NCBI RefSeq assembly: GCF_008831285.2
Contig: NC_045149.1
Coordinates: 16,084,578 to 16,148,577 of the forward strand
Length of the DNA: 64,000 nt
From: Nymphaea colorata
Lineage: Eukaryota; Streptophyta; Magnoliopsida; Nymphaeales; Nymphaeaceae
Reading direction: 5' to 3'
Shown piece by piece: positions 1-48,587 of this stretch (its first letter is position 1; each line of letters begins with the position of its first letter). Below the pieces are notes generated by a model that was given only the letters and a program-made list of their open reading frames with translations, was not told the origin of the DNA and ran no database searches. Position numbers and translations under genes: made by a program.

Positions 1-862
1 ACGTTGCACAACAAGTTCACATGTAACCTTAAACAATTTCTTAGAATTTTGAAAAGTCTGCATAATTGAATTTTATAATTAAATTGATTTAAGAGTTAGA
101 GTATCATGGTATTTTTGGACTACCAGACATTTTGAATTAGTCTTGAATTTTCACAAGAATGCCACTACTTTTTATCATTTTGTGTCTCTTTATCATATGT
201 AAGATATGTGTTACTGTAATATTTTTTTCCTGGAACGCAGTGAAACCTGTGCAGTCTAACATATTATGCCTTTTCCATAACATGTCTTTTTTCAGAATCA
301 AATGTACTAATTATTTAAACAGAAATTCTCAATACCTTCCCTTGCCAAGGTATTACTGCTGAGCCTGATATGCTTTATTTACGGTATGACATCCAGATTC
401 ATCTCTGAAGCACCATGACTAGGTCTTGTAAATATCATACCACAAGCTGTAACATTTTGAATACCCAAAAAACACATGCATATGCAAGAAAAGTGATGAA
501 TATATTGCTTTGTCTTTTCAAGAACATCGCTTTATGTTTTTTCTCCTCTAAAAGAAGTAGGTCATGTGTTACATTCCTGACTTGATGCCTCAGTGCAGTC
601 CATGGAGTACTATTTGCAAATTCACATTTGACAGGGTTATCTTTATGGTTTTTCAGTCTTATTTCCAGATGGTCGCACTTTGATAGGATCCATTGATGAA
701 CTGGAATCAACTTCCTTATTGTTGTTGCAGGGAAATCAACTGCATGATAACATGTTCGATTGGTTGCCTAAAAGAGTTTTGATTGTCATCATACTGCTCT
801 CCCATCTCTTTGTTTTCTATCTTGTAAATGTGCGGCGGAGAACTTTGAAATTGAAAGTATAA
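1..862 (+). CDS. TPST: Tyrosylprotein sulfotransferase copy A, last exon only (partial gene)
   Basis: Only the 3' end of this gene is in the window. An acceptor (gttgttgcag) ends at 730 and opens a phase-0 exon at 731-862 that ends in TAA. It encodes a hydrophobic segment (VLIVIILLSHLFVFYLV) followed by a basic tail (RRRTLKLKV). This is the arrangement at the C-terminus of plant TPST, a type I cis-Golgi membrane enzyme that sulfates tyrosines of secreted peptide hormones using PAPS. Exon 11 of the complete copy C has the same phase, the same anchor layout and a similar tail (RALKLKNH). Bases 1-730 would then be the last intron; I see no other exon there. The catalytic part lies left of the window, so whether the gene is functional cannot be judged. 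Confidence 0.72.
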
Positions 863-879
863 GTGTTGAGCAGCGAAAC

Positions 880-2480
880 CGAAAGGCATCTTGCTGTTCA
901 GTTTTCTATGTAGGGTCCGTAATTCACAATTTGTGCCATTATTGTGTCTTTCATCAGCATAAGAAACGTATATGACTTTATGGTGAAGCTTCACAGCGTG
1001 GTCCACAAGAAGGGGTGGCTGGCAATTTGAGTGGGTTAGCAACTATGGCTTTTGTAGCAGCTGTGGTGTTTTATAGATTTCAGATATCCTTTTTTTAGGG
1101 TTCATCGAGTTTGGTGGATAATGAGATGCATACTGCCAAAGACTAGCTGTTCATCTCATATCCTTGAATGGGGAACAGTCGCTTAAATTTCAAGCAGAAG
1201 AAATTCCTTGGCACAGGCATGGAATCAGGCAAAGAGTTAAGTGTGCAGCCACGGAATCAAGCAAGGATTTGATTTAATCTGTTCTCAATGTACTTGGGAA
1301 CAAGAAATAACGTAATTTTTTCACGTCGGCCCTTTCTTCAGCTATTGAGGACCTGTCACTTGGGCTGATGCATGGGGATTCCTAGAGCACAATGTAAATT
1401 TTGAACTATTTTTACTTTTCTTCGTATTGTACAGAAATACGAGCTTCAAAATACCATTCTTGGTATAATATATTCTTTTATTCGACCAAAGCTTCTCCAT
1501 CCGGTTGGGTTGAGTAAGTCACCTTGAATTTCTTTGACCCGCTTACTTGAGTACCCGTTGACGGCCTGAACCACATTATTTTTCATAAAACGTCATTGTC
1601 AAGAAGAAATTCTGTACATGTAAAAGGGAGAAGTCCGATGTCAGGGGGCAAGAAGGGTGAGTTTAAGGGCCAAAGGTCTCAAGTTCGTGTCAAATCTTTT
1701 TGTTTCCCCCACCACACTGATTTATGGAATGTTAGCTAGTCTTTGGTTTTACCTATGTGGGGTTGAAATGAAAAGGACAGCATGGAAAGTTGGTTTGAGA
1801 AAATTCCCACTGGCCCGCCTTCGTTGAATTTAACTCTAAATGTGAGGCTAGTCTTCCTGATTTTTGTTATACAAGACTCCCTATTGCTTTGAACGACAGA
1901 AACTGCTGTTGCATTAAATCACGAAACGATGGAAAGTGTAGAAAACTCTGATCCCTAATGCATCCTTTTTCAAGTTGAAAAATGGTTTTTCCACTACTGT
2001 TTAGAAAAGGGTAAGGACATCAATGTCATTCTCCTTCTTCAACACAGCTTTTATAAGGTGGTAGCCAGTTACATAGAAGGCTTTTTGAGTTTGCAACTCA
2101 AAGGTAGCTTTTCATATGTCGCCATTATACCGCACACATTCCTGAGTTTTGGAACCTAGAGATAGGCTCTTTACTTGGTAGTAAGAGTAAACTCTTACAG
2201 CAAAATGTTTCAGGAGTCTAGCCCTTCCGAAAATGTGTGGTTAGAAAACCTTATCTGTATGTGATGTTGAAGTAAATAATTTTAAGAAATGTTTAGAAGG
2301 ATGCAGGTGACATGATAAAAGGTAGTGTTGTAAAAATCCAGCTGCGTCGTCCTCTCCATTCAAATGGAATTGGTCGTAAATTGACAGTTTTTATTCACCA
2401 GCTGATATTATAGACTTGGAATCGCAATTTGTTTGTTGTAACGTTTGTTCATATTATAGCATATTTCCCTTGTGATTTTT
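880..2480. repeat. 3' flank of TPST copy A, duplicated downstream at about 4,220-5,380
   Basis: This stretch has no coding signal. Blocks of it recur in the same order 3 to 3.5 kb downstream. The gtaggGTCC block near 912 recurs near 4,246. The 'gggttagcaactatggc' block near 1,031 recurs near 4,381. The 'caaggtagcttttcatatg' block near 2,099 recurs near 4,987. The 'atgcaggtgacatgataaa' block near 2,302 recurs near 5,175. This marks a segmental duplication covering the TPST 3' end and its flank. Confidence 0.65.
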
Positions 2481-3579
2481 GACATCTGAGATGTGATCAG
2501 GGGAACCAGTTACAGATTTATTTGCTTATTTTTCATGTGATCAGTTTAATGTCATTCTATTTCTTGTTTGGGTACACGATTCTATTTTACAAGCCCAGCC
2601 AAGTGGTTTCAAGTGTACTCAGCAGCCTAGGCGCTGCTTCTTGTGCAAGGAATTCCAACAGTCCTCTTGGTCGTTACAGTTTTTTTTTTTTCTGTTTAGG
2701 ATTTTTTTGTTATTTTCATTAAACGACGAGAATTGTCTCTTGGAATAAAAATTCTAGCACATTAAGTTCATAAGAAAAATGAAAATTAAAATATTTTTTT
2801 ATTTCAATTTCAATTAAACCATGTTGCGAACATTCTTATTCTAAAAACATTATTTTAGGACGCCAAACGGGCCTTAAATTTATAATTTTTCTTTCTTTCT
2901 TTCTTTCTCTCGAGTGTATTTTGTTTCTTTTGCCTATTCTTTTCTTTCGTGGGGCAAGTGGTGGGACATCCTTTTTACTCGGTTGTCCTGCTTCGTTACG
3001 TACAACCCGATAAAATTTAATAACCGTGTAAAAAGGATGTCTCTCCTTCCCGTCCTCCTTTCCATTTCTCAATTCCCCGTTGCTTTCTTTGACGGCTAAA
3101 ACGACAGTAGAAATTAAGAAGAGGATACAACTGAAAGCCCCCTAGCGTACGTATATTATTCCTAGATCCATAAGCACACACACACACATATATTCCTGAT
3201 TACGTCCTGCTGGAGATAAGTTTTCCTTCTCTTCATATTCAGATCCACATGGCCCGTTGGTCTCCATCCGTCCGACCAATATAATTCAACGCATACGGCG
3301 TGGAGGAAGGCCCCATGGAACGATATGGGCCATCATCCCCACAGTACTCTTTAATTCATATGTAGGAGGGGACGCGGATGGTGTAAAAGTTAAGCAGTAG
3401 TCCAAACCATAACTATAAGCGCCCCATTCTTTTCAAGTCTTTCTTGTTGTTCTATTAATTTGAATAGTACGAAACGAGGAAATGTCATTTTGGGTAGTCA
3501 AAATTGCGTTTGAAGCACATACCTGTAAGGCTTTTATACGACCTTAAGGTCTCAATTAAGCTCAATGTCTCACAAACCA
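2481..3579. other. Intergenic, no gene seen
   Basis: Between the copy A flank and the copy B remnant. It holds a short pyrimidine microsatellite (repeated ctttctttctt near 2,890) and a short CA run near 3,177, but no open frame with a recognisable product. Confidence 0.6.
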
Positions 3580-4110
3580 CATGATTGAGAAGTTAGGATT
3601 ACAAGCTTGTCAGTTGACAAGAATAATTTTGACATGTCCATTCTTTGGTCGATGCATAGAATCCGGCTGTTCTCACCTTCCCCGCGCGATGTTACCTTCG
3701 GAAACAACTAGGTAACGCCAGAGCAAAATGTAAGCTGCTGGGTAATTCCCAGTGTTATGAAATTCTCCGATTCATTAATGGACCAACGGAGCTTCGTCTA
3801 GCAGAACTACTGGAGGCATATGACGTGCCTTAAATCGGGGCTCATCTCCTCTAAAATATATATATCTCCTGTCGTCTACTCAAAAAAAGGTTGGTATATA
3901 TCATACGTTTGTTAGTAGATCTGCTCTTGAAAAAGGCGTCCAATGGGTCCATCTGACATGTGCTGCTGGGTGCAAGAATCATATTTTAGCACCATAAATC
4001 AAGTTTTAGCTTGAATTTAACTTCGAGACCGATTGAAAAACTGTTGCTTACTAATTTCACATGCATCCTTATGGAAGACATGGGATGCCCAAAATTTAGG
4101 GCGTGTGCTG
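3580..4110 (+). pseudogene. TPST copy B remnant (exon-9 region and flanking introns)
   Basis: This segment is collinear with 17,830-18,430 of TPST copy C. Shared blocks include the 'ttgacaag..tccat' stretch, the cgcgcgatgtta..cttcgg block, 'actggaggcatatgac' (copy C: actaatggaggcctatgac), 'cttctctaaaatat' and 'tcatattttagcaccat'. The equivalent of exon 9 is destroyed: the frame after the LLEAYD-like stretch is lost, the 'KYEADRRSS' part is deleted, and no GT donor remains at the expected place. It is therefore a decayed duplicate, followed by the duplicated 3' flank that is shared with copy A. Confidence 0.6.
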
Positions 4111-4219
4111 TGAGTTCACCGGCCGGATAGACTCATGGGGGGAAGGGAATCCCCACGACGTCATGTCGTGAAGGCCTTTGTGATACAATCAAACTGTTTC
4201 AAGCAGTGGGACCAAAAGA

Positions 4220-5380
4220 CATATTGCTCTGCAGAATTTTTGCGTAGGGTCCCCCAAGTCACGTGGCATTGTTTGGGTCTTTCCTCTAATTAAGAGAGAG
4301 ATGTATCTGATTCTGATCGCTTTACGGTGGAGCCTCACTGCATGATCCACAAGAAAAGAAGTGGTGGGTGGCCTTTTAAATGGGTTAGCAGCTACGGTCT
4401 TTGTAGATTACTGCGGCTTATCTAGAGAATCAGATATCCTTTTTGCAAGGTTAATCGAGTTTGTAGGACAATGAGATGAGCACCGTAGGTCGGCTCCGTC
4501 ATCCCTTGTGTGGTCTCTGCTAGTAATATTTCGCACATCTTCCTTTTTAAACCCGTTCGTCCCATCTTCCTTGGGGCAGGAGCAGGAGCAGGAGCAGTCG
4601 CTTAAATTTTGAGCAGAAGAAGTTTTGTGCTGCAAGCATGAAATCAAGCAAGGACTCCATATAATCTGTTCTCGGTGGTTTCTTAGGATATATCATCTTT
4701 TAACTACTTGCGACCAATAAATAACATAAGCTTTTTATGTATCGCCCCATTCTTAAGCTGTTGAGCTGTTGGATGCATGGGGATTTCTTGAGAGCTAGAC
4801 GTATTCTTTGATGAATTACTTTTAACATACCTTTCCTGATAAATGTAGCCCGGTTAGTATGATCAGTTACAGAATATATATATATCTGATTCGGTTAAAG
4901 CTTTTTGATCTACCCGTTTAAGTTGAGTACATCTCTTTGTCCTGATTAGTTAAGTTTGTTTTAGATCGTGTGGAGTTTATAACTACAAGGTGGTTTTTCA
5001 TGTGTTGCAGTTCGACCGCACATACTCCTGTAGAAATGGCGAGTTGGATGGATTTGCTTGGTTTTAAAAGTAAAAATTTTCTAGAAACAGTCAATTAGGA
5101 TCTAATATGTGGATGAAAATCTTATTTGCATGTTCAAGTAAACAAATTTAAGAAATAGTTTAAATGTTTAGAAAGATGCAGGTGAAGTGGTAGATGGTGG
5201 TGTTGCAAAAACTACCGCTGAATGAATCGTCCTTACGGTCCAAATGGAATTGGTGGAAAATTGGAGAGGATTCACTAGCTGATTTGGTTGCATGCACGCA
5301 GTTTATTTTTAAAATCATTTTGAAGTATTTGTGTTTAATTTTTCTATATATATTGGGAAAATCATGACAGTAGAATATTT
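4220..5380. repeat. Duplicated TPST 3' flank, second copy
   Basis: Second copy of the 880-2,480 block, diverged by substitutions and small indels. A short GGAGCA repeat (4,577-4,597) is special to this copy. The Copia element is inserted in it at 5,380; the flank appears to resume at 9,739, where a 'gtggtcaggggaaacactt' stretch near 9,831 resembles 'gtgatcaggggaaccagtt' near 2,494. Confidence 0.6.
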
Positions 5381-5554
5381 TGATGAAAGTTAATGCAAAA
5401 TAAAAACGTAATCCTTGCTGCCTTGTGTCATGCCTTGTAATTACTTGAAGAAACAAGTGGTGGATTAGTTGTTATGTTGCTCTTGTGTTATATTCCTGTC
5501 ATTTACAGGAGCACAAGAAGAAGACGTGTAGACAGGTCATTCTTTTAGCTAACA
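5381..5554 (+). repeat. Copia 5' LTR (174 bp)
   Basis: Starts TGATGAAAG and ends CTAACA. It matches the 3' LTR over most of its length, but lacks about 50 bp present there and has about 17 bp (around 5,497-5,515) absent there. Confidence 0.88.
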
Positions 5555-5884
5555 GTGGTATCAGAGCTAGGTTGATTGTGTTGTCGCGATTACTGGTAAA
5601 AGTGCAAAAGATAAGCCTGCAAGGTAAAATATGCACATAACTTGTTTGACAAAATTTCTGTGGAAAATTTCTGTTCATTATAGCTAATGGCATGAGAGAG
5701 CTTCAAACAAGGAGAAAAGACAGTTGAATCAAGAGAGCAACGAAAGAAGGATTGAAAAGTCTTACTTATTCTTCAACAAGCTGTAAGTGAGACTATCTTT
5801 CCTCAAATTGCTGGTGCTACTAGTTCAAATGAAGCTTAGACTATTCTCAAGCAAGAATATCATGGTGATAAGAATGTAACGACA

Positions 5885-6580
5885 GTGAAACTCCAAACCC
5901 TCCGTAAAGAGTTTGAGACATTGTTTATGAAAAACAATGAATCAGTCCAAGAATTTTTTTCAAGAGCTTTCATAATTATAAATGAAATGAAAACCTTTGG
6001 AGAGGCTGTTAACAACCAGAAAAATGTAGAAAAAATATTAAGGAGTTTACCGCCTAAATTTGATCGTGTGGTTACAAATATAGAAGAGTATAAAGATTTG
6101 ACTGCATATTCTGCTAATGAACTATTAGGTTTTCTTTTAGCCCATGAACAAATAATGAACAGGTCAACTGAGAAAAGTGTAGAACAAGCATTCCAAGCCC
6201 AAGTCAAGTTAAATGACTTTAGCAAAGAGAGAAAGGGAGCAACTGTACGAAAGAGTGCATGTCGCAGGCGAGGTAAAAGTAACTACCGTAGACGTGGACG
6301 AGGAAGATTTGAGGCAGGAAGAGACAAGTCAGAAGGAGGTGACACGAACAATAAAAAACATGACCACAAAAACATGTATTGTGTTTTTTGCAAAAGAAAT
6401 AGTCATACTGAAGCGAACTGTTGGGATAAAGCAAAACAACAAGCTAATGTAGTGGAAGAGAAAGTAGAAGATGGTAACTTGTTTTTTATTCATATAAAGT
6501 CAAAAGAAAATATCGATCATGCATGGTTTTTAGATAGTGGATGTAGTAATTATGACAGGAAAGAGAGACTTGTTTCGTGA
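5885..6580 (+). pseudogene. Copia gag with zinc knuckle and start of protease (broken)
   Basis: This open segment encodes the UBN2-type gag core, with motifs such as FETLFMKNNESVQEFFSR and LPPKFDRVVTNIEEY. A CCHC zinc knuckle follows (CVFCKRNSHTEANC, spacing CX2CX4HX4C). Next is the protease active-site motif WFLDSGCSN at about 6,524-6,550. The gag frame is already interrupted upstream by a TAG at 5,837-5,839, where a Trp is usual. Right after the DSGCSN motif a 1-nt frame change occurs, and the protease continues in the frame that opens near 6,537. It is a dead polyprotein. Confidence 0.85.
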
Positions 6581-7777
6581 CATTGATGAATCGGTGGAGA
6601 AACAAGTTCGACTTGGAGACAACAAAAAGGTGCAAATTGATGGTAAAGACACAATTGAGATACCAATTAAAGGTGATACTAAAAGGTTGGTACATGATGT
6701 TTACTATATATATGCATTAGCATATAACTTGCTAAGTGTTGGATAGTTAGCACAAAAAGGATATTTGATTTTATTTCATGATGATGTATGTGAAATCAAA
6801 AAGAAATGTTCTAACATGCCACTTATAGTAGTGCACATGACAAAAAACAAAATGTTTTCAATCGAGCTTTCACACTTTAATGCATATGCCTTAGTTGCAA
6901 ACATGAATAAAGTGTCTAAATTATGACACTTAAGATATGGACACTTGCACTACAATGGTCTGAAGTTATTGGGGCAGAAAAAATTAGTTGTTGGTTTACC
7001 TCATCTTACCATTAATGAAGATATTTGTGAAGCATGTGTGTATGAAAAACAACATCGTTTTCCATTTTTAATTGAGAAAGTATGGAAAGTAAAAGTTCCT
7101 TTAGATTTAGTACTGGACCAACAAGAACTCTATCTCTGAACAATAGTAGATGTTTTTTACTATTCACTGATGATTTTTCTTGCATGTGTTGGGTGTTTTT
7201 TCTTGTTGAAAAATTAGAAGCCTTTGAGAAATTCAAGGAATTTAAAGTATTTGCAGAAAAAGAATGTGGACGACCTATAAAAATATTTCATACTGATAGA
7301 GGGGGAGAATTTCTGTCAAATGATTTTGAAAATTTCTGTAAATTACATGGTATACGTAGACAGTTGACAATAAGAAAAATTCCTCAGCAAAATGGAGTTG
7401 TTGAAAGAAAAAACCGTAAACTGGTAGAGATGACTCGTAGTATGTTGAATGAGAAGCATATTCCAAATGAGTTTTGGGCTGAAACAAAGGCTACAGTTGT
7501 GTATCTTCTCAACATATCACCAACTAAAGCAGTCCGCAATATGACTCCATATGAAGCATGGTGGGAGAAAAAACCTTATGTAAGTAATTTAAAAGTTTTT
7601 GGATGCATTGCTTACTTCTTGCTTGGTTCTAGTAGTCGATACAAAATGGATAAAAAGAGTGAGAAATGTATTTTTGTGGGTTATAGTAATAACTCAAAAT
7701 GTTATAGTCTATATAATCCAGTAACAAAATCTTTAATCATTCGGCATGATATCATTTTTTATGAGAATGGATCATGA
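6537..7777 (+). pseudogene. Copia protease end, GAG-pre-integrase and integrase (broken)
   Basis: The protease tail ends at a TAG (6,744-6,746). The GAG-pre-integrase zinc-binding region (HLRYGHLHYNGL and CEACVYEKQHRFPF) follows a TGA at 6,924-6,926. The integrase core is in the frame that ends at 7,777. It shows the acidic catalytic positions in LFTDDFS, HTDRGGEF and NGVVERKNR, followed by the usual WAETKATVVYLLN and KVFGCIAY motifs. A frame change near 7,100-7,140 and the TGA at 7,775-7,777 separate it from its neighbours. Confidence 0.85.
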
Positions 7778-8025
7778 GAGTGGACAAGAAGAGAAGATAA
7801 ACATATTCTATTTGTTGAATCAATTTCTCACTCACATGCATCATCATCAAGTCCTACTCATTCAAAAGAGACCAATTCAGATCATGAAGAAGATGTCGAA
7901 ATAATTATAGATGGATCTTCTTCACCAAGAAAGGTACGATCTCTACATGATATATATGCTTCTTATTCATTTGCTTTTATGGTAACTGAACCATCATGTT
8001 ACGAGGAAGGATGTGGTAAAGAAGA

Positions 8026-9537
8026 ATGAAAAAAGCAATGCAAGAAGAGATTAATACAATTAAGAGAAATGATACATGGCAGCTGGTAGATTTGCCACAA
8101 GGAAAGGGACCTATAAGTGTGAAATGCGTTTACAAATTAAAGTATAATGTTGATGGAGATGTGCAAAAATACAAGGCCAGACTAGTCATCAGAGGGTATG
8201 TACAAAAATATGGCATTGATTATTTTCAAACTTTTTCTCCTGTTGCTTGTTTTGAGACTATCATACTAGTATTTGCACTAGCGGCTTACTTAAAATGGAA
8301 GGTATTTCAATTTGATGTAAAGTCCGCTTTTTTGAATGGTGCTTTAGAAGAAGATGTATACGTACATCAACCACATGACTTTGTCATAAGTGGACATGAA
8401 AAGAAAATGTATAAGTTGAAGAATGTCCTTTATGGTCTCAAGCAAGCACCAAGGGCATGATATGGGGGACTTGACACATATCTTCACAGAAATGAGTTTC
8501 GACGTTGTGAGAGTGAACCCGCATTATACTTGAAAAATAAAGGTATTGATATGCTTGTAGTATGTGTTTATGTAGATGACATTATCTACATGGGATCAGG
8601 TGATGTGCTCATTCAAAAATTCAAGGACAGTATGATAAGTGAGTTCGAAATGTCAGATTTGATTTTATTGCACTTCTTTCTTGGTCTTCAAGTTGTTCAA
8701 ACAAATAATGACATTTTTATCTCTCAAAAACCATATCTATTAAACCTATTTAAGAGTATAAAATGTTAGATTGCAAGTCATGTTCTACTCCAATGAATGC
8801 ATGTGAAAATTTTGACTTTGTATGATGGGATTGCTAAAACCAATGAAACAATGATTAGAGGTCTAGTTGGTGGCTTGTTATATTTGACTCATACACGATC
8901 ATATATTTTATTTTCTATCAGTTTGGTATTCAGGTTCATGCACAATCTATCATTACAGCATCTGGAGGCAGCAAAACGTGTTTTGCGTTACATCCGTGAA
9001 ACTATTGAATATGAAATTTGGTATAAATCAGATGTTTGTTTTAACTTACTTGGTTACACTGATAGTGACTAGGCAAGAGCTGTAGATGATTGAAGGAGCA
9101 CAAGGGGCTATGTTTTTACACTTGGATCAGGTGCTATATCATAGTGTTCAAAAAAGCAAAGTACGACGACATTATCATCTTCAGAAGCGGAGTATATTGC
9201 TACATCTGCAGCTACTTGTTAGGCAATTTGGATGAGTCGAGTTTTGGAAGATCTTGGTCAAAGTCAAACTGAAAGAACACCAATTCATTGTGACAACAAG
9301 GCAACTATAGCAATGACAAGAAATCCGATTTACCATGGGCGGACAAAACATATTGAACTTCGTCATCATTTCATTCGTGAGATTATTGGTAAAGGTCAAG
9401 TTGTGTTGAAGTATTGCTCAACCAATGAGCAAGTTGCAGATGAGTTTACTAAAGCACTTTCATATCCAAAATTTGTGAAGTTTCGGTCTTACCTTGGTGT
9501 TTCAAACTTTGTATTAAAGGGAAGTGATGAAAGTTAA
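8026..9537 (+). pseudogene. Copia reverse transcriptase and RNase H (broken)
   Basis: The reverse transcriptase begins with MQEEINTIKRNDTWQLVDLP and contains QFDVKSAFLNGALEEDVYV and YGLKQAPRA. A TGA at 8,458-8,460 breaks it. The polymerase active site VCVYVDDIIYMGS follows at about 8,560-8,600. Further stops occur at 9,070 (TAG), 9,091 (TGA) and 9,220 (TAG). The RNase H end carries HCDNKATIAMTRNPIYHGRTKH and the ADEFTKAL motif, and reaches the 3' LTR. Family assignment is certain; activity is lost. Confidence 0.87.
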
Positions 9538-9733
9538 TGCAAAATAAAAATGTGAGTAAGGAAGACTTTCAGTGTGTTTTGAAAAATTTCTTGTTGTGTG
9601 CTTAATCCTTGCTGCCTTGTGTCATGCCTTGTGACCACTTGAAGAAACAAGTGGTAGATTAGTTGTTGTATTATTCTTATGTTATAGGAACACAAGAAGA
9701 AGACGTGCATCCAGGTCATTCCTTTAGCTAACA
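9525..9733 (+). repeat. Copia 3' LTR (209 bp)
   Basis: Same TG...CA ends as the 5' LTR. It contains an extra stretch (about 9,552-9,603, 'gagtaaggaagactttcag...') that the 5' LTR lacks, so the two LTRs differ by indels as well as substitutions. Confidence 0.88.
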
Positions 9734-10090
9734 TATTTTGACAATTCAAAACAGCATGGGGTAAAAGGCCACTTGTGGATGGGAGTATTGTATTGTGTCG
9801 CATGTGAATAATTTTATCTTTTCTAGTGCTGTGGTCAGGGGAAACACTTGCATAGTCAATTTGCCTTTTTTTTTCTTTTCCTTATTATTTGATGATCAGT
9901 ATAGTGTCAATATGTTTTTCGTTCGAGTGTAGGAGTGTACTTTACCAGTATATTTTGCAACCATTATATTTTGTTCTACGTCTAGCCTATTTTTTTGACG
10001 GCTGCGGCCAATTGTACAACCTGTACATTTTGGGCTAGTGCAATACTAATATTTTGTGGGCGAAGGGGTCTCAGAGGCAACGGTGCTGTC

Positions 10091-11369
10091 TAGGGCTGCA
10101 CACGAGTCGAGTCGAGCTCGAGCTTGCCCAGCTCGAGATCGACTCGGCTCATTGAGCTCGAGCTCGAACTCGACTCGAACTCGAGTCGAGCTGCCTAACA
10201 CAAGCTCGAGCTCGACTCGATTATACAAAGTCGAGCTCGAGCTCGACTCATTAACTCGATTAACTTGTGTGCTGGAGTTGTAGGCATCGGCATTGTTGAT
10301 GGTGGCGTAGGACTCTTGTTGGGATCCCCTTTTGAAGGCCACCCTGTCTCTGTGATTAAGATGGACACATCTGAGAAATTGAGGTTCTCTATCGAGGCAT
10401 ACGAGGAATTGATCATGGCGTCGAGGACCTTATTGTAGTGAAGCAGAGTATTGGGATCAACCTCCTCTTTCGTGGGACTGATTGGCCGGAACAGAGCATT
10501 GTCAAGGAGAACCACACCTTTGTTTTGCATAAAGACATATTAGGGATAGAGATTGAGCATCAATGGTGAGCCGGTTCTGCGGAGGAGAGAGTGGTGAAGA
10601 CCTCATCACCGACGATGATGGCGACGATGGCGGTGTCAGAATAGAAGGAGGTGATGTTGGTCTTGACCCAAGCTGCTGTAGCCTGCAGAGGCATTGGAGG
10701 AGCCGATGCCCAGCAGTTGGTTGTTGGGATGACGACGATGCAAGCAAGGGTTTCTAAAACTCCACATTTGGGCATACCCTTGCCCAAGCGAGAGTTCCAG
10801 AAAGCCTCCCATTGGCAAAACACAAAACGAGGAAGTGTGAGATCAGAGAGGGAGGGAGGGAAAAAGATAGAGTGTGAGATCATAGAGGGAGGGAGAGAAG
10901 GGGAGAGTAGAGGGAGAGGCTTTGGCAAAACGAGAGAGAGAGAGAGAGAGAGAGAGCGATTAAAGAGGGGAAGATAGAATGAGAGAGTAGAGGGATAGGA
11001 GAGGCCGAGAGTAGAAGGGTGTACCTTAGCATTGAAGAATCGTCGCCGGTGGGGGTGAAAGCCGGTGAAGAGAGATGCAAAGAATGGGAAAGTGATGACG
11101 GTGGGGGTTCATGAGAACGAATAACGAAGAGAAAGCCGGTGAAGAAAGGAAAGTGACGCTGCCGACGCATCATGGAAGAATTACTCAACTCGAGCTAATG
11201 AGCCGAGTTCGGTTAAGCGAGCTTCGTTAAACGAACTCGAGCTCGACTCGATAAATAAACGAGCTGAACCATCAACTCGAGCTTGACTCATCGAGTAAAA
11301 AAGCTGGCTTGAACTCGAGTTTGAGCCGAGCTTTAACGAGCCGAGTTCGAGTTACTCGGCTCACCCTTA
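10091..11369. mobile_element. Non-autonomous hAT-type DNA transposon with captured gene fragment
   Basis: The element is bounded by a perfect 8-bp target-site duplication GTGCTGTC (10,083-10,090 and 11,370-11,377), the length typical of the hAT superfamily. Its ends are imperfect inverted repeats: tagggctgcacacgag at the left, and tagggtgagccgagt as the reverse complement of the right end. Both ends carry long arrays of GAGCTCGA/CGAGTTCGA-like subterminal repeats (about 10,103-10,260 and 11,190-11,365). No transposase is encoded. The interior holds a fragment of a GH17 glucanase gene and a purine-rich stretch with a GA microsatellite (10,932-10,956). Confidence 0.85.
10300..10810 (-). pseudogene. 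GH17 glucan endo-1,3-beta-glucosidase fragment inside the hAT element
   Basis: On the minus strand, 10,530 down to about 10,315 encodes motifs of the plant GH17 glucanase core: VVLLDNALFRP, DPNTLLHYNKVLDAMINSSY and ILITETGWPSKGD. The last contains the conserved ETGWPS catalytic-region motif. Upstream on the same strand (about 10,800-10,590), WVKTNITSFYSDTAIVAIIVGDEV matches the preceding GDEV/GNEV region, cut here into pieces of at most 20 residues. The family's IGSSNAS motif lies in another frame, so a frameshift separates the parts. Start, signal peptide, N-terminal strands and C-terminal domain are missing. It is a transduplicated, non-functional fragment. Confidence 0.8.
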
Positions 11370-11377
11370 GTGCTGTC

Positions 11378-11889
11378 AGAGATGAAGCCAAAGCCACCAC
11401 TGTTTTTAAAGCTTCCAGGTGTTGGGAGATCGAATTTTTTTTATGTAACATCAGGAGTCAGGACAGAAAGGGTCACCCCCACAGAAGGAGCGTTGTCACG
11501 TTGCTACATCTTCATCTGTCTTCTCCAGCTCCAACTCCAACTCCAACTTGAACTCCTTCCCTTGTCGACTGCACTGCACTGCACTGTTCTCTACTTTGAA
11601 GTCCGCACCTTCTTCTATTCTTTATTCTTGATTGCTCCCCGTTTCATTTTCTTAATCTGGATGTAGCGATTTTGTTGTTATTTGAATTCATTTTCCTTTT
11701 TCTTCATCTGTGGATTGTGGGGTCCTTGATCTCCGTTTTTTTTGTCCTTCCAACTATTTTCTTTTTGGCATTTCTTTTTCTCTTTCTTTCATGATTTGTC
11801 GTTGTCTCTTATCTGTTTCTTTTTTTACCGGTGAAAGGAAACTCACCTTATGTTTGGACTATCTTGTTCTGCCTTTTCTTCTCCATTGT
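11378..11889. other. Upstream region of TPST copy C, no gene seen
   Basis: Pyrimidine-rich intergenic DNA between the hAT element and the copy C start. Small open frames here have no recognisable domain. Confidence 0.5.
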
Positions 11890-11890
11890 C

Positions 11891-11900: not shown

Positions 11901-11975
11901 ATAGAGGCTGAGGGATTATGTTTTCATCTAAACTTGTTCAAGGCCTTCCTTCACTGAGAGGGAGAGAATCGAGAG

Positions 11976-15829: not shown

Positions 15830-15861
<32 letters not shown>

Positions 15862-18800
15862 CTCTCTAACAATACCTTATTAGTACTTCAAAGGTATTGA
15901 TGATATGAGAGTGAGTTGCGTGTACCGCTCCATGCATGCAAAATATATACAGAGAAAAAAAAGATAGGAGCTAGGGTATTTTAGAAATTATTTTAAAAAA
16001 TGTCATTTTTTAATCGTTTAACTTTTTCTGTTTTTTTTTTTCCTTACAAAAATGTTTTTAACACAAAAAAATTGTGCACCAGCGTGTGCATATAACCAGC
16101 TCAGTGATGATATTGGTGGTTGTAGGCTAAATTATATAAGTCACAAGGGATACTTGCATTCTAACTACTATTCAATGATTTGCCTAATTAACAGGGGCAT
16201 GGGCAGATTGAAGGAGGCCAGCAGGGGCCATGACCCCACTCAAATTAAAAAAAAAAAAATCAATGTAATGTAACAAAAAAATCATTTAGCTTTTTTAAAA
16301 ATCATATTTTGAAAAATACAACTTAGTAAAAATTCTTAGTTCCACCCCTGCTCATGAATACACCTTCTTTTGCTTGTCTAACATTGTGCGTGTGTTCATC
16401 TTCAGAGGAATGCTAGAGGAAATGAAAGGGTAATGGAAGAAATCAAAAATCCATACGACATCGAAGAGATCGTCATGCCATTACATGCTTTTATTAATGA
16501 TCCGCTTGCACATGAACTCATCCATAATGGTGCCACTTTTCAGGTACACATAATTGTTCACTGCACGTATTGTTGTATTCACCTGCTTTTACATATACGA
16601 TACGATAGATTGCGCACCCATATGCATCCATTAATTTCTTACACCTTCTGCCTAGTTATCATTTATCAATAAAGCTAATTAAAGGGCCTGCAGTTCAAAT
16701 TTTACCATGTTAATTTTCCTATTCAATCAATCGTTCAGGTAGCTGGATTGACAAACAATTCCTGCTTAAAAGATTCCCATGCTGTGCGCCGCTGTGTACA
16801 GAAGCACCCATCACTTGGACGATACGTACTCGATGTTGCGAAGGTGGGCAAATGCACCAGCCAACTGCTAGTTGTTGAGTGGACAGACCCAACGAAATGC
16901 CTTCTTCCTACAAGTGAAGCCGCATGTTGTTAATTTTCCAGGAAACTTAGGCAAAAAGCACTTATCAGTGCCACTAAATAATTAGATGTATATTTCAGGA
17001 AAGATTGGAGAAAATGTTCCATATTGCACTCACAGAGAAACATAAAGAGTCAGCCAGAATGTTTGCTGAAGCAGTTGGTGCGCAAGCGATTTCGGAGCTG
17101 CAAGCCCTAGCATCTCAACCTAAAGCAGCAGCTAACAATGGCGCAGGTATATCTAGTAGCATCCCATATTTAATTTGTTTGAGTTCAACAGGCTTTTTGT
17201 TTTTTGAAAGATGCTCTACTGATCAATTGGTTAATTCGTCAATACCATGCGATGCACTTGACTAAATGAGTTTGCGTTCACTGCCCTAGCTTGAGGAGAA
17301 GCTGGTAGAGAAATTGTCAAGTAGCATTTATGTGAATATATTGAGAAGCTTTTTACACTGACGTCTGCAGTTGTACTCTGCTGGAGCTTGTCGTGTGGCA
17401 CTCAAATGTAAGAAGCAAGTCCGTATGGTGGAGCTGTTTGGTAAATGCTTGCTTTGGGGTATTAATGAAATTCACCGGAAACTCTAACTGCGCCTGTTGC
17501 CTGGGAAGCAAATAATATATTCATCCGTTATCTGATTAATTAGATTCCTCTTGCAGTTGATCAGAGTCGTTTTCTAATTGTAAGAAGCATGCTTGTGTGA
17601 CTGCATAACGTATCCGACCTTGAAACGTGTCTATGACCTTTTCTGTGGCAGAGTCAAGCGGTTCCCTTAACTATTCTGTAATGGAAAATCGAAGCAATCT
17701 CGAGCAGGTGAGCAAGAATTAGCTAAGGCCCGTGATAAAAAAAAGGAGTAAACGTTAATGCATCCTTTTCCTTAAGCTGTTGTAGAGATTATAATATAGT
17801 ACAGGCTAATTGTCTTTCCTTTTTCATTGAGAAGCTCATCAGTTAACAAGCCTTTTGACAAGTCCATCTTTTGATTGGTGGCGTAGAATCCAGCTGTTAT
17901 CGTCTTTCCGCGCGATGTTATCTTCGGCAGTGACGAAGTAATCCCATACCCAAATGTAAGCCATAGCCGATTCCCCATTAACTTTCCGCAATAACAATGT
18001 CCCAATTAATTCGTTAATTAATTAGTGAACCAGCAAACTGACGATGGAACTTTCTGTAGCAGATGACTATAGCTAAACTAATGGAGGCCTATGACAAGTG
18101 CCTCTCTAGAATGGGCAAGTATGAAGCGGATCGGCGTTCGTCTTCTCTAAAATATGTATCTCCTGTCCTCTACTCAAAAGAGGTAAATATATCAAACATT
18201 TGTTAGCATATGTGCTCCTGGAAAAGGCGTTTGTTTACTATATCTGTTCTGGCAAAAGGCGGTCCATTAACAGCAGATTGATGTGAGATATGCCTCATTT
18301 TGGCTGCAGAAATCATATTTTAGCACCATGCATCAAGTTTTAACTTGAATTTGAGCACGAAACATGACTAAAACTAAAGTTGTTTAATTGCTAGTTTCGC
18401 ATACAGGCCCCAGGGAAAAGTGTGGTGAATGACACATCTCGTTATTCGAACATATTTCATCCTGTAGATGTACTTAATTATCATGCCTCTATGTTAGTTG
18501 CTGTTTACACTTACTTTTATTCATTGTTAAGAGGTTCAAACACTTTGTTTGATGAGTAATTTCTGAAAATAACATCTACGAGCTTTCTTTGGCAATTGAA
18601 AAGAATAATCTATGCTCCTTGCACATCTCTTGAAGGGTGGGGACCGTCGTACTTTTAATTATTGCAATTTTCTCTGTTACATATGTTCTCTTTTGTTGTT
18701 TGGTATTCGCTTGGAATATTATCTAAAATTTTTACTTTTCTATTAAATCGGTGAACTATAAAATCTTCAAAAATTCAAAAGATTTGTCAAAGAGCTTTTA

Positions 18801-19405
18801 AAATTAAGTAAAATAATGATCTATAATTTTGTGCCAACGATAAATAATGATAATAATCAATAATGGACACTAAGTACTGTAAAGCAAGTATGGAAGAGAT
18901 TACACACCAAAAGCCGCACCGAAAAGATTATCAATTACGCTGGTCCACAACACTATATCCCGTACCCGCAACATTGGGCTCCCAATGCCCTTTAGTTTTG
19001 ATTTCTGAAAGCTTTGAAACTTGTAGGGACGAAGAAGTATTCCAGAGAGTACCATCAAGCATATAGTATCTTTGAACAGTCTCGATGTAGAACTTCACAA
19101 GCATGCACAGAAGATCTTCGAACAACGGCAGCAGCGCCTCCTGTCGAGCCGCAAAAAGGCCAGCGATAACTTATTTTCCTTTCCTCTCTTATTCTTTCCT
19201 GCATGCATGTCGTGTCGTGGTCGTCAGTTTACTGATCCATATATTGTTGCAGGAAAGTCGTGATGATGATGAGGAGAATAATAGCATAAACAGCTGGTCC
19301 ACCAGAAAAGGCTTTATAGTAGTTCCCCTCACGCTCATGTCCCTCGTTTGTACTCTCCTGCTTGTAATTGCGCGATTAAGAGCTTTGAAGCTCAAGAATC
19401 ACTAG
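11976..19405 (+). CDS. TPST: Tyrosylprotein sulfotransferase copy C, complete 11-exon gene
   Basis: Plant TPST transfers sulfate from PAPS to tyrosines of secreted peptide hormones in the Golgi. The phase-consistent exons are 11,976-12,012; 12,161-12,359; 13,747-13,818; 13,983-14,271; 16,406-16,543; 16,739-16,843; 16,999-17,146; 17,652-17,707; 18,063-18,182; 19,027 to about 19,158; and 19,253-19,405 (TAG), giving about 482 residues. Exons 1 and 2 join into a signal peptide (MSRWILTVLLAAAVILP...). The PAPS-site motif FLHVPRSGGRSFFHC spans exons 2-3. LRHPVARVLSSYE and LDAWPWNYLLPW lie in exon 4. NPYDIEEIVMPLH and IHNGATFQVAGLTNNS lie in exons 5-6. A C-terminal membrane helix and basic tail lie in exon 11. 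Intron 2 uses a GC donor (12,360-12,361). The exon-10 donor is unresolved. No stop or frameshift is seen, so I infer a functional gene. Confidence 0.88.
12771..13128. mobile_element. Possible MITE in intron 2 of TPST copy C
   Basis: The left end (tttgccgactatgtcatatg) and the reverse complement of the right end (ttggcaaactctgtcacatg) form imperfect inverted repeats about 360 bp apart. The interior is AT-rich, with an internal direct repeat containing 'aaacattaaattaatagtt' near 12,876 and near 13,000. I could not find a clear target-site duplication. Confidence 0.4.
13717..13743 (+). repeat. (TG)n microsatellite at the intron-2 acceptor of TPST copy C
   Basis: An uninterrupted TG run ends three bases before the acceptor AG (13,745-13,746). 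It takes the place of the usual polypyrimidine tract. Confidence 0.9.
15829..15868 (+). repeat. (CT)n microsatellite
   Basis: A CT run of about 40 bp with one interruption, in intron 4 of TPST copy C. Confidence 0.9.
16192..16351. mobile_element. Small hAT-type MITE
   Basis: The left end caggggcatgggcag and the reverse complement of the right end (caggggtggaactaag) begin with the CAGGGG typical of plant hAT MITEs. The 8 bases flanking each side (ctaattaa and ctcatgaa) agree at 6 of 8 positions, consistent with an aged target-site duplication. About 160 bp with an A-rich interior and no coding capacity. Confidence 0.5.
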
Positions 19406-19945
19406 GAATTGGTGTCTTCAAACGTGCAGATTCCCATAAAAGCATAAAGCACTTTTTGTGCCATTCGCAATGTTCCTTTTCCCTGCGTCTAGGTGTTAGC
19501 ATGCATGATTTCCAACTGTACTAGCAACTTTTAAATGTGTGTCGCGTCAGGGATGTGTCGAATAATAGTCTTGGCACTTTGAATGGCATGTACTAAGTGC
19601 ACCAGTTCTGGTGCAATATCTTCTGATTACTTGGGTACGACAGCCTAAGATTTCTTTGGACCGATTATTTTGTCCACCTCACACTCTTGCACAAGCACCT
19701 TTGCACATGCGCGTGACAAAAGAAAAAATCCTCTTGCTTCTCACAGCACACCAGCGGATGCATGAGGTGGTATGTCGTGATTGGAGGAAAACATTGGATG
19801 TCCGGAGGATTTAGCACCTATATATATACATATAGATGAAAAGTCGATTGTTGCTAGTGCTAGATGGTTGCTAAATAGTTAAAATTTGGAAATTCATCAC
19901 TAACAGTACCATAAATGACCTTCAAGCGATCATAAACCTTCGGAG

Positions 19946-22900
19946 TGAGTCCAACTGTAGAACGTTTGCTACACACCGTGGGTACGACATGATGTCCAGA
20001 TTGCCCAAGGATAAAACTTCGGTGCTAACAATACAGCGGCATCCGCTGGATCGAGTGCTCAGCAGCTTCGAGAAGAATGTGGAATGGGCAGCCCTGTATC
20101 TGCTTTACCCTAATTCAGCTTCCGCCGCTCAAACTGCGGAGAAGTATCCGAGGGAACGGCGTGTCCCGACTCTGCTAGATGCTTGGCCATGGAACTACCT
20201 GCTGCCATGGATGACGAAGGACCTATTGGCAAGGGGTATATATATATCTTTCATTTTTGCACTTTTTCTTCTTATAATTTGATTACAATATTTGGAAAGA
20301 TACAGAGAAAGTAAGCTTCCTGTACTTGAACGTGTGGGTAGACAACCCCAGGCCGCATCTCATATGATTCGTCAACAGCAGGTTAATTTGCGGGAACATT
20401 TTTCAGTGGTCACTATCTTAATATCAGATCCAGCAGTGTCAAATACCCGTATCTGCTTTATTGCTGATGACATCCCTTGTGTTGCTGATTAATTGCCGAA
20501 AACTGTGTGGTTCTGTCTGTCCTACCCCCTCAGACCAATATAGTTATACACGTACCAATAGTATATACGTCTAAGAATAATGTGCAGGTAGGCTAAGCCC
20601 CATCAAATAACAGGGGCAGTATACATTTTAGAATAATGTGGTGGTAAGCTAAGCCCCATTAAATAATAGAGAGCTCATCAACTTTTCAATGGTCTCTAAG
20701 GGGTCAAATGAACATCATCTGAGTGTTGTATAAATCTAACTCAAATGGGGTCATATTCATAGGAAACCTATTTGAGCGTTCCATGAGTTTATCACAAATT
20801 TATAGCTTGTTCCTTATACTAGGTTTTGTTTCTAAAACCTGGTTTGCCTTCAAAACTCGATGTTGGGTGAGTTTGGATGACATTTTCAGAAAATTTAATT
20901 GATTTCCAAAAGGGAAAAGGTGAGTGAATAACTTTTATCCCCATATGGTTATTCACCAAAAAAAAAAAATGTTTTGGGTGTATCACTCAAACACAAAAAC
21001 CATTTTTTTTTTACTTATTAAGAAACTTAGTTTTCATAAAATCAGGTTTCCTGGAAATGGGTTTGTGAAGGCGTCCCCAAATTCCCGTTAACTTTCAAGT
21101 GAAATTCTCAAAGAACTGCCAATTAATAAAAATTATTCTAATTTTGTATCTTATACGTGCAATTTTATTGCTATGGTCATGTGAAAGCTAAAAGGAAAAA
21201 AAAAAGTTTTAGTGACAGGAATCCACATATTTTGGTTCTGATTCCTTTGTACAGATGTTTAGTAAAGATAAATGTTTTCTAACGCGACTTTTTCCACCAG
21301 TCAATAAATACCCTTTTTTTGTAGTAGTGAAAAAAAAAAAATCATATAGAACACCTGCCAAGAAAGAAAGCCGGTTGACTTTCTTTTGACAAAATGGAGC
21401 GAAGGCTGCCACTCGATGCTCAACTCTTAAAAGTTAATAAATATGTACTTAAGTGAGATTCTTAAAGAGATGCCTAGTAAGAAAAGAAAACATTAATTAG
21501 ATGTAAAATGATAAAAAAAAGTATCACCTGTAAAGATCATCTTCTCTCGTGACCAACGAAAGTTACTTTAATCTTTTTATATTAAAAAATAATATTTTTT
21601 CAGTAAAGCAATTCTCCGACCACCTATGTTTGTTAAGTTGTAAAAATTTGAACAGTGACTTGTTGTTTGTCTCTCTTTGTTTAGGCAAATTTTTGTAACC
21701 CTTTCGTACTGCCATACTAATTTGAATGGCATTGTATTGTATGAAAAAGGGAAATGCATGCCTACCCTGCAGTTTATCCCATATATCTGCTTCTTGATTT
21801 AATCCTCACAACACTTATTGAGGGACATCAAGTCTTCTAACGGATACGTGATGCATATTTCACATCCCAACGTAACCATAGACGCCGGTAGTAAAGGAAA
21901 TGAAAAAGCTTCACTAGCGTTAGACTTGTTCAACAAAAACAAGAAGAAAAAAAAAAACGTAAGTTTGAGCCTTGTTGTAAAATTCATTTGCAAGGGAATC
22001 GAGCGTTGCGGATAAATTCCGAGTGCTCTCCCGACCTGTCATAGCCAATATGAGTTCAGCTCCCAGGCATTATTATATTAAAAGTCCATTGAGTCCATCG
22101 TCTAACTGAACCAGTCAACATGGATGACATTGACATCATATATATTCAATCTAAACAAATACTAGAACACCATCAATCCACTCTCAAACAATATTACAAG
22201 CAATCAAGTAGGGGATGAAGTTCACTCTAGCTGGTATATTGTTCCCGATTCATATATTGCAAGCCCCAACTTAATTGTGCAGGTTCGTGCATATAGAAGA
22301 GACAAGAAATCAGAGCAAAAAGTCTTAACAAGTTTGCAATAGAAGATCTAGTACCCACACTGGACGAAACAGAAACAGGCCGCAACTGGCTCAGGAACTG
22401 TAACTCTACATTCAATAAGAAAACCCACACAACCATGTTAAGCACAGAGGATAATTTGACCTTAAAACAAGAGAAATTAAGATATATATTGATTCCACCT
22501 TTCTCTCTCTCCCTCTCTCTCTTGCATACATAATCTCAGAGGTAGTACAGTAAATATATATATATATATATATAGATGATATTTGTCACCCAATTATAAC
22601 AGCATAAACAATGTAAATGACAAGTGATGCCTGCGTTGCAATTGGCGTTCTGAAAATTCATATCGTCATATATATTGAGAATGTTTGCTGAAGCAGTTGG
22701 TGAACAAGTGATTTCTTAGCTAGCATTCCAACCTAAAGCAGCAGCAACTGTAGCTAAGAATGATGCAGGTATATATAGTAGCTTCCTCATATTTAATTTG
22801 TTTCAATTGAATAATCTATGAGTTTCTGAAGAAACCTTTCTGAAATTTAGTTAATTACGTCCAATACTATGTGACGCATGCAGCTGTCTGAACAAATTTG

Positions 22901-23313
22901 CATTCACTGCCTAGCATGAAGAGAAGCTGGTGGGTATGGCTAGCTATTTGCATGTATGTGAATTTACTGTGAAACTATTGAAACTAACGCCTATATAGCA
23001 GTACTTCCGTGGGATTCTCGACCTTTTAAACACTCCAAACTCTAAGGCCCCGTCTGTACGTATGGTGAAGTTGCTTGGTATATAAATAATGCTTGAGGAT
23101 GTGAAACTTGAAATTCTGATCGTGACTGTTGCCAGGGCTCAAATGTTCCTTTCTCCGGTTAATTAGATTTCTAAACTTGTAGTTCACCAGAGTTATTTTA
23201 GAATTGTAAAAATTAGATATCCAAACCATGAAACGTGCCTATGACCTGTTGTGGCAGAGTCAAGCGCTTTCTTCAGCTATTTCGAAATGGAAGATCCGAG
23301 CAATTTTGAGCAG
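19946..23313 (+). pseudogene. TPST copy D, broken paralogue
   Basis: The exon-4 equivalent (19,946-20,234) has exactly the 289-nt length of copy C exon 4 and is fully open, with SVLTIQRHPLDRVLSSFEKN and LLDAWPWNYLLPW. An extra G then precedes the donor (20,235), shifting the phase. Equivalents of exons 5 and 6 are not found in the following 2.4 kb. An exon-7 remnant (22,679-22,768; RMFAEAVGEQVIS) has an in-frame TAG right after those residues. The exon-8 remnant (23,258-23,313; ESSAFFSYFEMEDPSNFEQ) has lost its donor: GT is TT at 23,314-23,315. Homology to copy C intron DNA stops near 23,445. These lesions make it a pseudogene. Confidence 0.82.
22554..22574. repeat. (TA)n microsatellite
   Basis: Uninterrupted TA run within the copy D region. 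Confidence 0.85.
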
Positions 23314-23449
23314 TTAAGGGAGAAACTAAGGCCAACATTGCTTCTGGCCGTTCTAGAGATTGATTATATATATTAAAGGTTAATTATGTTTCCTATCCCT
23401 TTGAGAAGTTATAATTATAAGCTCCTCAGTTGACAAACATTTTGACATG

Positions 23450-26400
23450 AAAAGATAAACTTTTTTTTTTTAATTATATAGCCTAAAATACCTCTTAAAA
23501 AGGAAAAAAAATTAGTTTAGGAAAATTTAATTGTTTCCCTATCTTTTCTCTGTCGTCTCTTTTGAAAGGTATTTTGAACTTTAAAAAAACGGAAAAACAA
23601 CTTGATTTTTATATTTGCAATTGAATTTTCATCTCTGCTCTCCTTGAATTGATAGTTTAGATAGTTCTCGTAATTAAGTCTGATACATGAGAGTATTGCA
23701 TCAAAGGATGGGATTAAACACATCGCCTGACGAAGTGCATGTATAGTAGGAGAAGCAGGAGGACTTAGCTTTTTCTTCTTTTTTAGCTGTTTGTTGAATG
23801 TGGTGTTGTTTAATCTAATTAATTAGATTGTTTTCCTGTTTTTGAACAGCTCGTCTTCAACTGCTTTTCCTTGGTTCCGATGGGAGCAGGTCGCTGCGGT
23901 GGTAGGCCCCCAACTTAACCCACCGCTAGCTGTGTTCGGCGCGTGTTTGCACAAGAGAGAGAGAGAGAGTTGTCTTGCTAGGCTAGTCGATTGGGTCTAT
24001 CTCTCCCCACCAGAACCACTGAACCAGGACGGACCAGCACAAATGTTGGGTTGTTGTTTTATTTATTCTTGAGCCGTCGTCCTTCAAAGTTAGGCCGTTC
24101 AAAATGTAAGTCATTAAAACTCGTGAGCGTCCTGCTGCTGCTTCTGTTCCACTTCCACAAGCTTGCTTATCGTAGACTAACAACAAACCCCTTTAATATA
24201 TTATTACCAGTAAATTTAACTAGTGATGTGGTGGACTCCGCAAAAGATTGTTTAAGTTGGCCTTACCATGTGCTTAGGTTAGACTTAATTGGCTAAGAAA
24301 AGTGAGACCAACTTTTTTTTTTATATATACATACCTCTCCTCCTGATAAATGCTCGCCAGGAAAGCGATGGCCCGAGCAGTCGTAAATGACGGTCTGTAA
24401 CAATTGGTCCAGCCAAATTTTCTTATAAACAAAAGCACAAATTAAGGATCAAAACGTCCATTTACGCGAATTGTAATTTGTTTGATGATATGATGAAATT
24501 GGAGGAGAGGACTTGAATCCTGGAGCAGCTATGGCCACTAAAAAATTAAAGTGTGAAGGCTAGCTGAATCAGTAATTTCTAATTGATTATTGATTTGTCG
24601 AGTGCAGAAACGGAAGCATATAGGAACGAGTTGCCAAGAAACTGTGAGGGGAAGCACCGAGCATGTAAGGGCGGAGGGACGCAGGGGATGGGAATTTCCG
24701 GGGGGAGAGTTGGGGCCCCGGAAAAGTCGGCGATCTTTCGGAAAACGTTTGCCCCCGAAATGAACCAAATGCGAGCGAGAGAGGAAGAAGGACTGTGGTG
24801 GGCGGAAGTGTCGGTGGATGGATCACCTTCCTCTCTTCACTCATTCTTGGTGCTGCTGGTTGGGGGGAGGGGAGCACCGACTCGCATTTGCATTTGCATA
24901 CCTGGACGTCACATGAAGAGCAATTGGCAGCCAGCCACGTGAGCCTCGCTGGAGCTGTGGAAGTCCTCTCCTGCAAAGCAACGGCCTATAGCCGGTCAGC
25001 TCGTCGGTGGAATTCCAGTGTCGGTCACCGACAGCAGGCAAGGGGATCTGATCTGTCGACTCTCCGCTCCGCCGGTGGACCTGGCTCAGCTGCCGTGGCC
25101 TCATTAAAGAGCGGGGCGAGCAAAAACATGTTCATTGTTGTAATTGGTACGACCCGAAGCGGAATTTGTCTCTTCTCCAACCCAATATGCTTGCTTATTA
25201 CATAGTCCTGAGTAATTTAGCATTCCACCTCCTCTTTGTCATTTTCGATAAAATACCACTGCCTCATTTTCTTCCATTCCATGGGGTTGGAGTTGGGAGG
25301 AAGAGTCGGAAGCAAAGACTACAAAATGGACAACAAAAGAACGCCTCTGCTCTGCCCACTTTTTCACCTTCTTGCCTCAAATAAAAACTTTTTATTCTTC
25401 TCCAGTTGGATGCAGGGGAGGATGTGGAGCGTGCTCTTCTTTCTACTTCATAAATCCTATCCTTCTCTCACCAGTCGCCTCTTTCTTGGCTGACAGCCAT
25501 ACCAGTGTCGGCTGTCCAGCTGCGGCAGGGGATGTTGCAATGCAGCTCGGGGCCACCACGCAACGCAACAGAAGCAGAAGCGGTCCCTCTTTTCCAACGG
25601 CGCGGCGGGGGCTTCGGCTGCCTCGGCCCTCCCTATATTAGAATTAGAATTATTAGAATTGGATTGTCGGCGCTCAAGATCGTTTGTCTCCCGGTGGACG
25701 TTTGACGGGTGTGGAAAACTTTATTCCCGAGGAATTTATCTTCCCTGTACGCCTTTGACTGGAAAAGGAAGAAAAGCTTAAAGCTTTCTCCTCCTGGAGT
25801 TCACCACCCATCCATCACGTGCATGCCTGTTAGAAGGTCCCTTTCTTTCCAACAGTCCATGAGAGGGAAAGGGAAGCGCGGATGCAGAGCAGATGGTAAT
25901 TAATTAATTAATTAATGGAAGGCAACTCCAATCCAATCCATTCCACTTCACCCCTTAATTTTAATTGATGTGCTGGCCTTTGTGACTACCACACCCACCT
26001 ATAAAACCAACACCAAAACCTTAGTACTCGTCTCCTAGACTCTGTTTTTGCTTCTCAAAGACATTTCTTTCCATTCCTACTCATGTATATATATATCAAT
26101 GGTTTCCCACAAATATAAACAACTGGAGGTTGAAAATTTCTAAGATATGATTGCACAACAATTTTTTTAAGTCTGCAGTTGAAAAAGTATGATCCAACAT
26201 CCAGATTAATGGACTAAAACCTTGCGCCAACTCAATTTAAAAAGCCACGGCACCGCTTCAGGCGAACTCTACTTGTAAATCGCAGCCCATAAATTAAATG
26301 TGGGTGTGGGAGGTACACCAAAATGTAGAGAGAGCAAAATTAAAAAAAAAAATAATAATAATAACAAATGGAAGAGCGAGGATAAAATTGGAGCACATGA

Positions 26401-48583: not shown

Positions 48584-48587
<4 letters not shown>

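Follow-up and report, generated by a model that had tools for sequence, protein, structure and literature searches.

A tandem cluster of intact and decayed tyrosylprotein sulfotransferase-like gene copies in Nymphaea colorata

Tandem array of TPST-like gene pieces

How did several pieces of a gene for a plant tyrosylprotein sulfotransferase (TPST) come to lie one after another on the same DNA strand, and which of them still work? This question is raised by a 64,000-nucleotide stretch of Nymphaea colorata contig NC_045149.1 (assembly GCF_008831285.2, forward-strand positions 16,084,578 to 16,148,577), hereinafter the window. Within positions 1-23,450 of the window, there are four same-strand pieces of a TPST-like gene, denoted A, B, C and D from left to right. 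A first-pass annotation had described these pieces as a tandem array with one complete and two decayed copies, and this description holds: copy C yields an intact gene model, and copies B and D are broken. The locus is likely an old tandem cluster of plant TPST genes, in which C is intact and probably functional, B and D have decayed, and A may be either a remnant or a second working gene.

Self-alignment of the window, at high sensitivity for positions 1-24,500 and at lower sensitivity for its full length, recovered collinear blocks both between the flanks of A and B and between B and C, the two comparisons on which the first-pass annotation had staked its proposal. The A and B flanks are linked by the blocks 869-1,128 versus 4,202-4,478 (E=3e-22) and 2,232-2,406 versus 5,104-5,283 (E=8e-18). 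The part common to B and C, 3,603-4,018 versus 17,832-18,352, consists of exons 9 and 10 with introns and aligns in three blocks (3,603-3,735 versus 17,832-17,961; 3,834-3,939 versus 18,130-18,230; 3,967-4,018 versus 18,301-18,352; E=2e-18 to 2e-12). Between C and D, the blocks cover exon 4 (13,981-14,272 versus 19,944-20,235, E=2e-69) and exons 7 and 8 with intron 7 (17,056-17,730 versus 22,678-23,333, E=2e-45). Every one of these blocks is on the same strand, and the similarity stands out against shuffled controls (n=60), the A/B flank reaching Z=24 and intron 10 of B/C Z=14.6. Because introns 7, 8 and 10 as well as the 3' flanks are alignable between copies, in the same orientation, duplication at the DNA level, rather than retroposition, is supported as the origin of the array, as had been proposed.

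Neighboring copies differ by about 19-22% of the aligned bases (132 of 607 for the A-B flank, 89 of 467 for B-C and 114 of 608 for C-D), a divergence too high for allelic artefacts. In introns or flanks, the Kimura two-parameter (K2P) distance is 0.20-0.22 for both A-B and C-D, and 0.12-0.17 for B-C. It is extremely improbable that the copies are unmerged haplotypes placed side by side by the assembly, a reading for which no support was found: in addition to this divergence, which comes with many indels, the lesions differ from copy to copy, and only B has a copia element, flanked by a 5-base target duplication, next to it.

A tblastn search of the whole window with the C protein (E up to 1) found only C itself, exons 4 and 7 of D, B, and one chance-like place at 55,814-55,930 (E=0.88); exon 8 of D was detected at the DNA level only. 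The DNA to the right of D (23,440-24,600) shows no similarity to C, B or the A flank (Z=-2.5, -0.3 and -3.7, respectively), and the whole window has no Rfam match at gathering thresholds.

Gene model and predicted function of the intact copy

Copy C (11,976-19,405, plus strand) is a single open frame of 505 codons in 12 coding exons, one more than the 11 originally counted. The exon ends were set by hand at splice sites that were chosen to keep the frame open. The start codon is in exon 1 (11,976-12,012), which together with exon 2 (12,161-12,359) encodes a signal-peptide-like stretch; exon 2 also contains the motif HVPRSGGRSFFH. These are followed by exon 3 (13,747-13,818), exon 4 with the motif LRHPVARVLSSYE (13,983-14,271), exon 5 (16,406-16,543), exon 6 (16,739-16,843), exon 7 (16,999-17,146), exon 8 (17,652-17,707), exon 9 (17,887-17,955), exon 10 (18,063-18,182), exon 11 (19,027-19,158) and exon 12 (19,253-19,405), which encodes a hydrophobic helix, a basic tail and the stop codon. 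The claim that C is complete stands to the extent that the 12-exon model is intact, but hinges on two GC-AG introns. One of these, intron 2, has a donor, TG|GCAAGT (12,359-12,360), that is otherwise strong; the other is the last intron, with a poor GC donor. The 3' end of exon 11 is uncertain, with other open choices beginning 40 bases into it; the GC donor at 19,159 joined to the acceptor at 19,253 is preferred because this acceptor matches that of the last exon of A in sequence and phase, and the conserved region is kept.

An open frame of this length is unlikely to have survived neutral drift: when 151 substitutions were simulated, C was left without a stop in only 23 of 5,000 runs (0.46%). 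Windows of 19 residues with a mean hydropathy above 1.6 occur in two stretches of the protein only, residues 1-26 and 473-502, and this profile, from hydropathy rather than a signal-peptide predictor, fits the type I membrane layout, with an N-terminal signal-like stretch and one C-terminal helix. In the Pfam search, Sulfotransfer_2 (PF03567) was the sole family found at E up to 1; it scored 12.9 bits (E=0.12), below the cut-off of 22. Among the PDB sequences, the sole match at E up to 1 was heparan sulfate 6-O-sulfotransferase 3 (HS6ST3, 5t03; E=0.019); this match consists of three collinear, individually weak stretches that include two nucleotide-site motifs. Specifically, FFLHVPRSGGRSFF and LRHPVARVLSSYE of C align, in this order, with VFLHIQKTGGTTFG and LRDPVSRYLSEW of HS6ST3, in stretches that score 6.7 and 0.8 bits; we take these two motifs of C to be the 5' and 3' phosphosulfate sites. 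The C protein and Arabidopsis TPST are also identical at 200 of 453 positions (44%), a comparison that serves as a lead, not a test, as the Arabidopsis sequence is a provisional one; the alignment stops short of the membrane helix. A search of viral contigs and of bacterial and archaeal genomes with a 249-residue part of C gave 5 and 68 pattern matches, respectively, none of which was confirmed, as expected for a plant gene. The length of 505 residues is inside the range of about 400-600 residues that PMC13074997 gives for plant TPSTs. From these features, we infer that C is a plant TPST, that is, a type I membrane tyrosylprotein sulfotransferase, and that it is transcribed and active; C has stayed intact and is probably functional. 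Given the role of the family (PMC4199319), its expected activity would be tyrosine sulfation of peptide precursors, for example those of PSK and PSY1, in the Golgi.

Several observations weigh against an intact, functional TPST. The splice sites of C were picked so as to maintain the frame, and if the last intron, with its poor GC donor, remained unspliced, the membrane helix would be lost. When 75 instead of 151 substitutions are assumed, 6.6% of the simulations keep C open. The Pfam and PDB matches are each non-significant alone, and the Arabidopsis TPST used in the comparison is a provisional sequence. In exon 4, C and D differ at 57 of 288 positions (60 of 288 without gaps). They encode 33 amino acid differences, where the absence of selection predicts 38.5 +/- 3.0 (as few arose in 234 of 5,000 simulations), a weak sign of constraint. 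The ratio of non-synonymous to synonymous divergence (dN/dS) between C and D in this exon is 0.47 by the Nei-Gojobori method (NG86), and there is no clear sign of stronger conservation in C than in D: at the 33 differing residues, the provisional Arabidopsis residue is present in C in 11 cases, in D in 9 and in neither in 13. Hence C itself may be relaxed.

Decayed copies B and D

Copy B is a dead 3' remnant. What is left of exons 9 and 10, along with portions of introns 8-10, lies at 3,584-4,087 on the plus strand and matches C at 81% of 467 aligned bases; next comes an A-like 3' flank (4,164-5,375, plus strand) that ends at the copia insertion. The homology spans about 3,584 to 5,343, with weaker similarity to D from 3,382 and a possible resumption after the copia insertion (Z=4.8 for 2,440-2,700 of the A flank). 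Exon 9 carries one extra base, and exon 10 several indels, including losses of 16, 7 and 2 bases; exon 11 was not found by self-alignment or tblastn, and no more than the final bases of exon 12 were detected.

Copy D is a decayed copy with an open exon 4. Its homology to C starts at this exon and stops in intron 8 (19,946-23,449). Exon 4 (19,946-20,234) is open over 96 codons and encodes a sequence with 66% amino acid identity to C, but its donor is shifted by an extra G. In Pfam, this exon matches PF00685 (E=0.071) and PF03567 (E=0.21), both under the cut-off. Only the cut 3' part of exon 7 is present (22,678-22,769), with an in-frame TAG stop at 22,717; exon 8 (23,258-23,313) is open, with its GT donor reading TT; and the homology ends in intron 8 (23,347-23,449). 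All these parts are on the plus strand. Exons 1-3, 5, 6 and 9-12 were not found, either by tblastn (E up to 1) or by DNA self-alignment.

The open exon 4 raises the possibility that D still supplies this exon to some transcript. Exon 4 of D is almost as similar to the provisional Arabidopsis protein (46.9%) as exon 4 of C is (47.9%). However, among 20,000 neutral simulations, an exon of this length is expected to be open in 11% if every substitution is assigned to D and in 30% if half are, and given that most of the other exons were not found, that exon 7 contains a stop, and that the donors of exons 8 and 4 are lost and shifted, respectively, such use of exon 4 is very unlikely.

Copy A at the edge of the window

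Of copy A, only the last coding exon (731-862, plus strand) is within the window; the rest would lie to the left of it. This exon is an open frame for 43 amino acids that comprise a hydrophobic helix (best 19-residue hydropathy 2.65), a basic tail and a stop, and its acceptor, ttgttgcag, is the same as that of exon 12 of C, to which it shows 65% DNA similarity (Z=5.9, 200 shuffles). A tblastn search with this exon retrieved, besides itself, eight weak places (E from 0.010 to 0.96), among which the true exon 12 of C (E=0.071) is outranked by a stretch in intron 10 of C (E=0.010). The link between A and C is thus weak at the protein level and rests on the DNA similarity and the position. The preceding DNA of A (1-730) shows no similarity to introns 10 and 11 of C (Z=-2.1). 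The 3' flank (863-2,600, plus strand) is common to B, with blocks aligning to 4,192-5,343 at 78% identity. A weaker resumption near 2,480-2,600 aligns with the DNA to the right of the copia element (Z=4.8 over 2,440-2,700), but the longer comparison of 2,480-3,580 with 9,740-11,975 shows no similarity (Z=-0.9). With its last exon intact, A could be either one more remnant or a second functional gene.

A stronger version, in which A is the main working TPST of the locus and C a diverged, possibly relaxed or specialised paralogue, is possible but not the reading we favor. The last exon of A fits the provisional Arabidopsis tail better than that of C does (score 55 versus 27; Z of 7.4 versus 3.8, 300 shuffles each), and the two GC donors of C, one of them poor, together with the exon 4 dN/dS noted above, point the same way. 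Conversely, C is open over 505 codons, which is unlikely if unselected, the visible part of A amounts to 43 amino acids, and the Arabidopsis outgroup is a provisional sequence.

Origin of the array

Under the preferred scenario of an old tandem cluster with C intact, local duplication at the DNA level would have produced at least four units in one orientation. The array could have been built by unequal crossing-over, which perhaps also generated B as a mosaic, and B and D would then have decayed as deletions and frameshifts accumulated, a stop arose and splice sites were lost.

The case for a mosaic B comes from the distances between copies. The last exons of A and C differ at 41 of 118 positions, above A-B (132 of 607; Fisher p=0.003) and B-C (89 of 467; p=0.0005); the 3' flank of C has no similarity to the flanks of A or B (Z=1.6 and -1.2, 60 shuffles each). 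A copy B that is simply sister to C or to A does not fit these distances, and one composed of a C-type and an A-type half would. The outcome depends on the alignment settings: a stricter local alignment covers no more than 51 bases of the A-C exon, with a difference of 19.6%, similar to 17.7% for A-B, and the disappearance of the excess weighs against a mosaic. B may be a mosaic; alternatively, the last exon of C could be changing faster, or the flank of C could have been lost by the same deletion that removed the start of D.

A bolder reading takes both A and C for working TPSTs, with membrane-anchor exons diverged (41/118) beyond the neutral flanks (132/607) and B a recombinant of the two. 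If this is true, one cluster would supply the plant with two differently anchored peptide-sulfating enzymes. We consider this reading unlikely, and slightly more so than before the last-exon excess vanished under local alignment.

Relationship to known TPSTs

In its length, N-terminal hydrophobic start, sulfotransferase region, and C-terminal membrane helix with a basic tail, C resembles Arabidopsis TPST (AT1G08030, 500 amino acids); unlike in Arabidopsis, there are four tandem pieces here. The 3' nucleotide motif reads RHP in C and D as opposed to RDP in both the provisional Arabidopsis TPST sequence and HS6ST3. The animal enzyme HS6ST3 resembles C in the three collinear stretches with the two nucleotide-site motifs, at E=0.019 only; in contrast to plant TPST, it acts on a glycan substrate and has a different membrane topology.

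The reviews PMC4199319 and PMC12506393 present AtTPST as the only Arabidopsis sulfotransferase with its domain. The first-pass annotation drew a contrast with this single copy, but overstated the surprise, since plant TPSTs are typically present in fewer than 4 copies, and in more than 5 in a few taxa, according to PMC13074997. The same paper places LcTPST1 and LcTPST2 of Liriodendron chinense on Chr3 and Chr15, so that this species resembles N. colorata in having more than one TPST locus per genome and differs from it in that the two genes are not in tandem. Among the matches listed in the literature search, judged by titles and abstract openings, no tandem TPST array is described. The TPST step activates the PSK, PSY, RGF and CIF peptide hormones (PMC13074997). 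The array fits an ordinary course of tandem duplication and decay, in a family whose copy number is known to differ between plants. A cluster of intact and decayed copies would show how duplication is followed by trimming of the dosage of a shared enzyme. Its wider significance is small unless both A and C turn out to be expressed, with different sites or different substrates.

Insertions and other features of the window

Two insertions separate B from C. The 3' flank of B is interrupted by a copia-type long terminal repeat (LTR) retrotransposon (5,381-9,733) with both LTRs and the target duplication TATTT; its gag, integrase and reverse-transcriptase domains are in separate open frames, and the reading frames are broken. 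Over 189 aligned bases, the LTRs are 10.6% divergent (K2P 0.115; the alignment runs slightly beyond the LTR), less than A and B are from each other, which fits insertion after the A-B split. The second, transposon-like insertion of 1,279 bases (10,091-11,369) is bordered by the 8-base repeat GTGCTGTC at 10,083-10,090 and 11,370-11,377. Its ends start with TAGGG/TAAGGG, which we assume to be hAT-like; it holds a fragment of a glycosyl hydrolase 17 (beta-1,3-glucanase) gene (10,195-10,539, minus strand; Pfam E=3.6e-8) and ends some 600 bases ahead of the start codon of C.

Elsewhere in the window, we identified an exon of a GATA zinc-finger transcription factor (30,581-31,405; Pfam E=3e-14), a phosphoglucomutase/phosphomannomutase domain II exon (39,406-39,726, plus strand; Pfam E=1.8e-10) and a GNAT acetyltransferase exon (42,495-42,806, minus strand; E=4.5e-17). 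A 401-codon open frame (48,965-50,170) encodes a plant organelle RNA recognition (PORR) protein (Pfam E=3.3e-106) and is preceded by a 235-base tandem repeat in 1.8 copies (48,529-48,951). Finally, the minus strand encodes two double-stranded RNA binding motifs at 58,758-59,862 (Pfam E=5.5e-16 and 1.6e-16).

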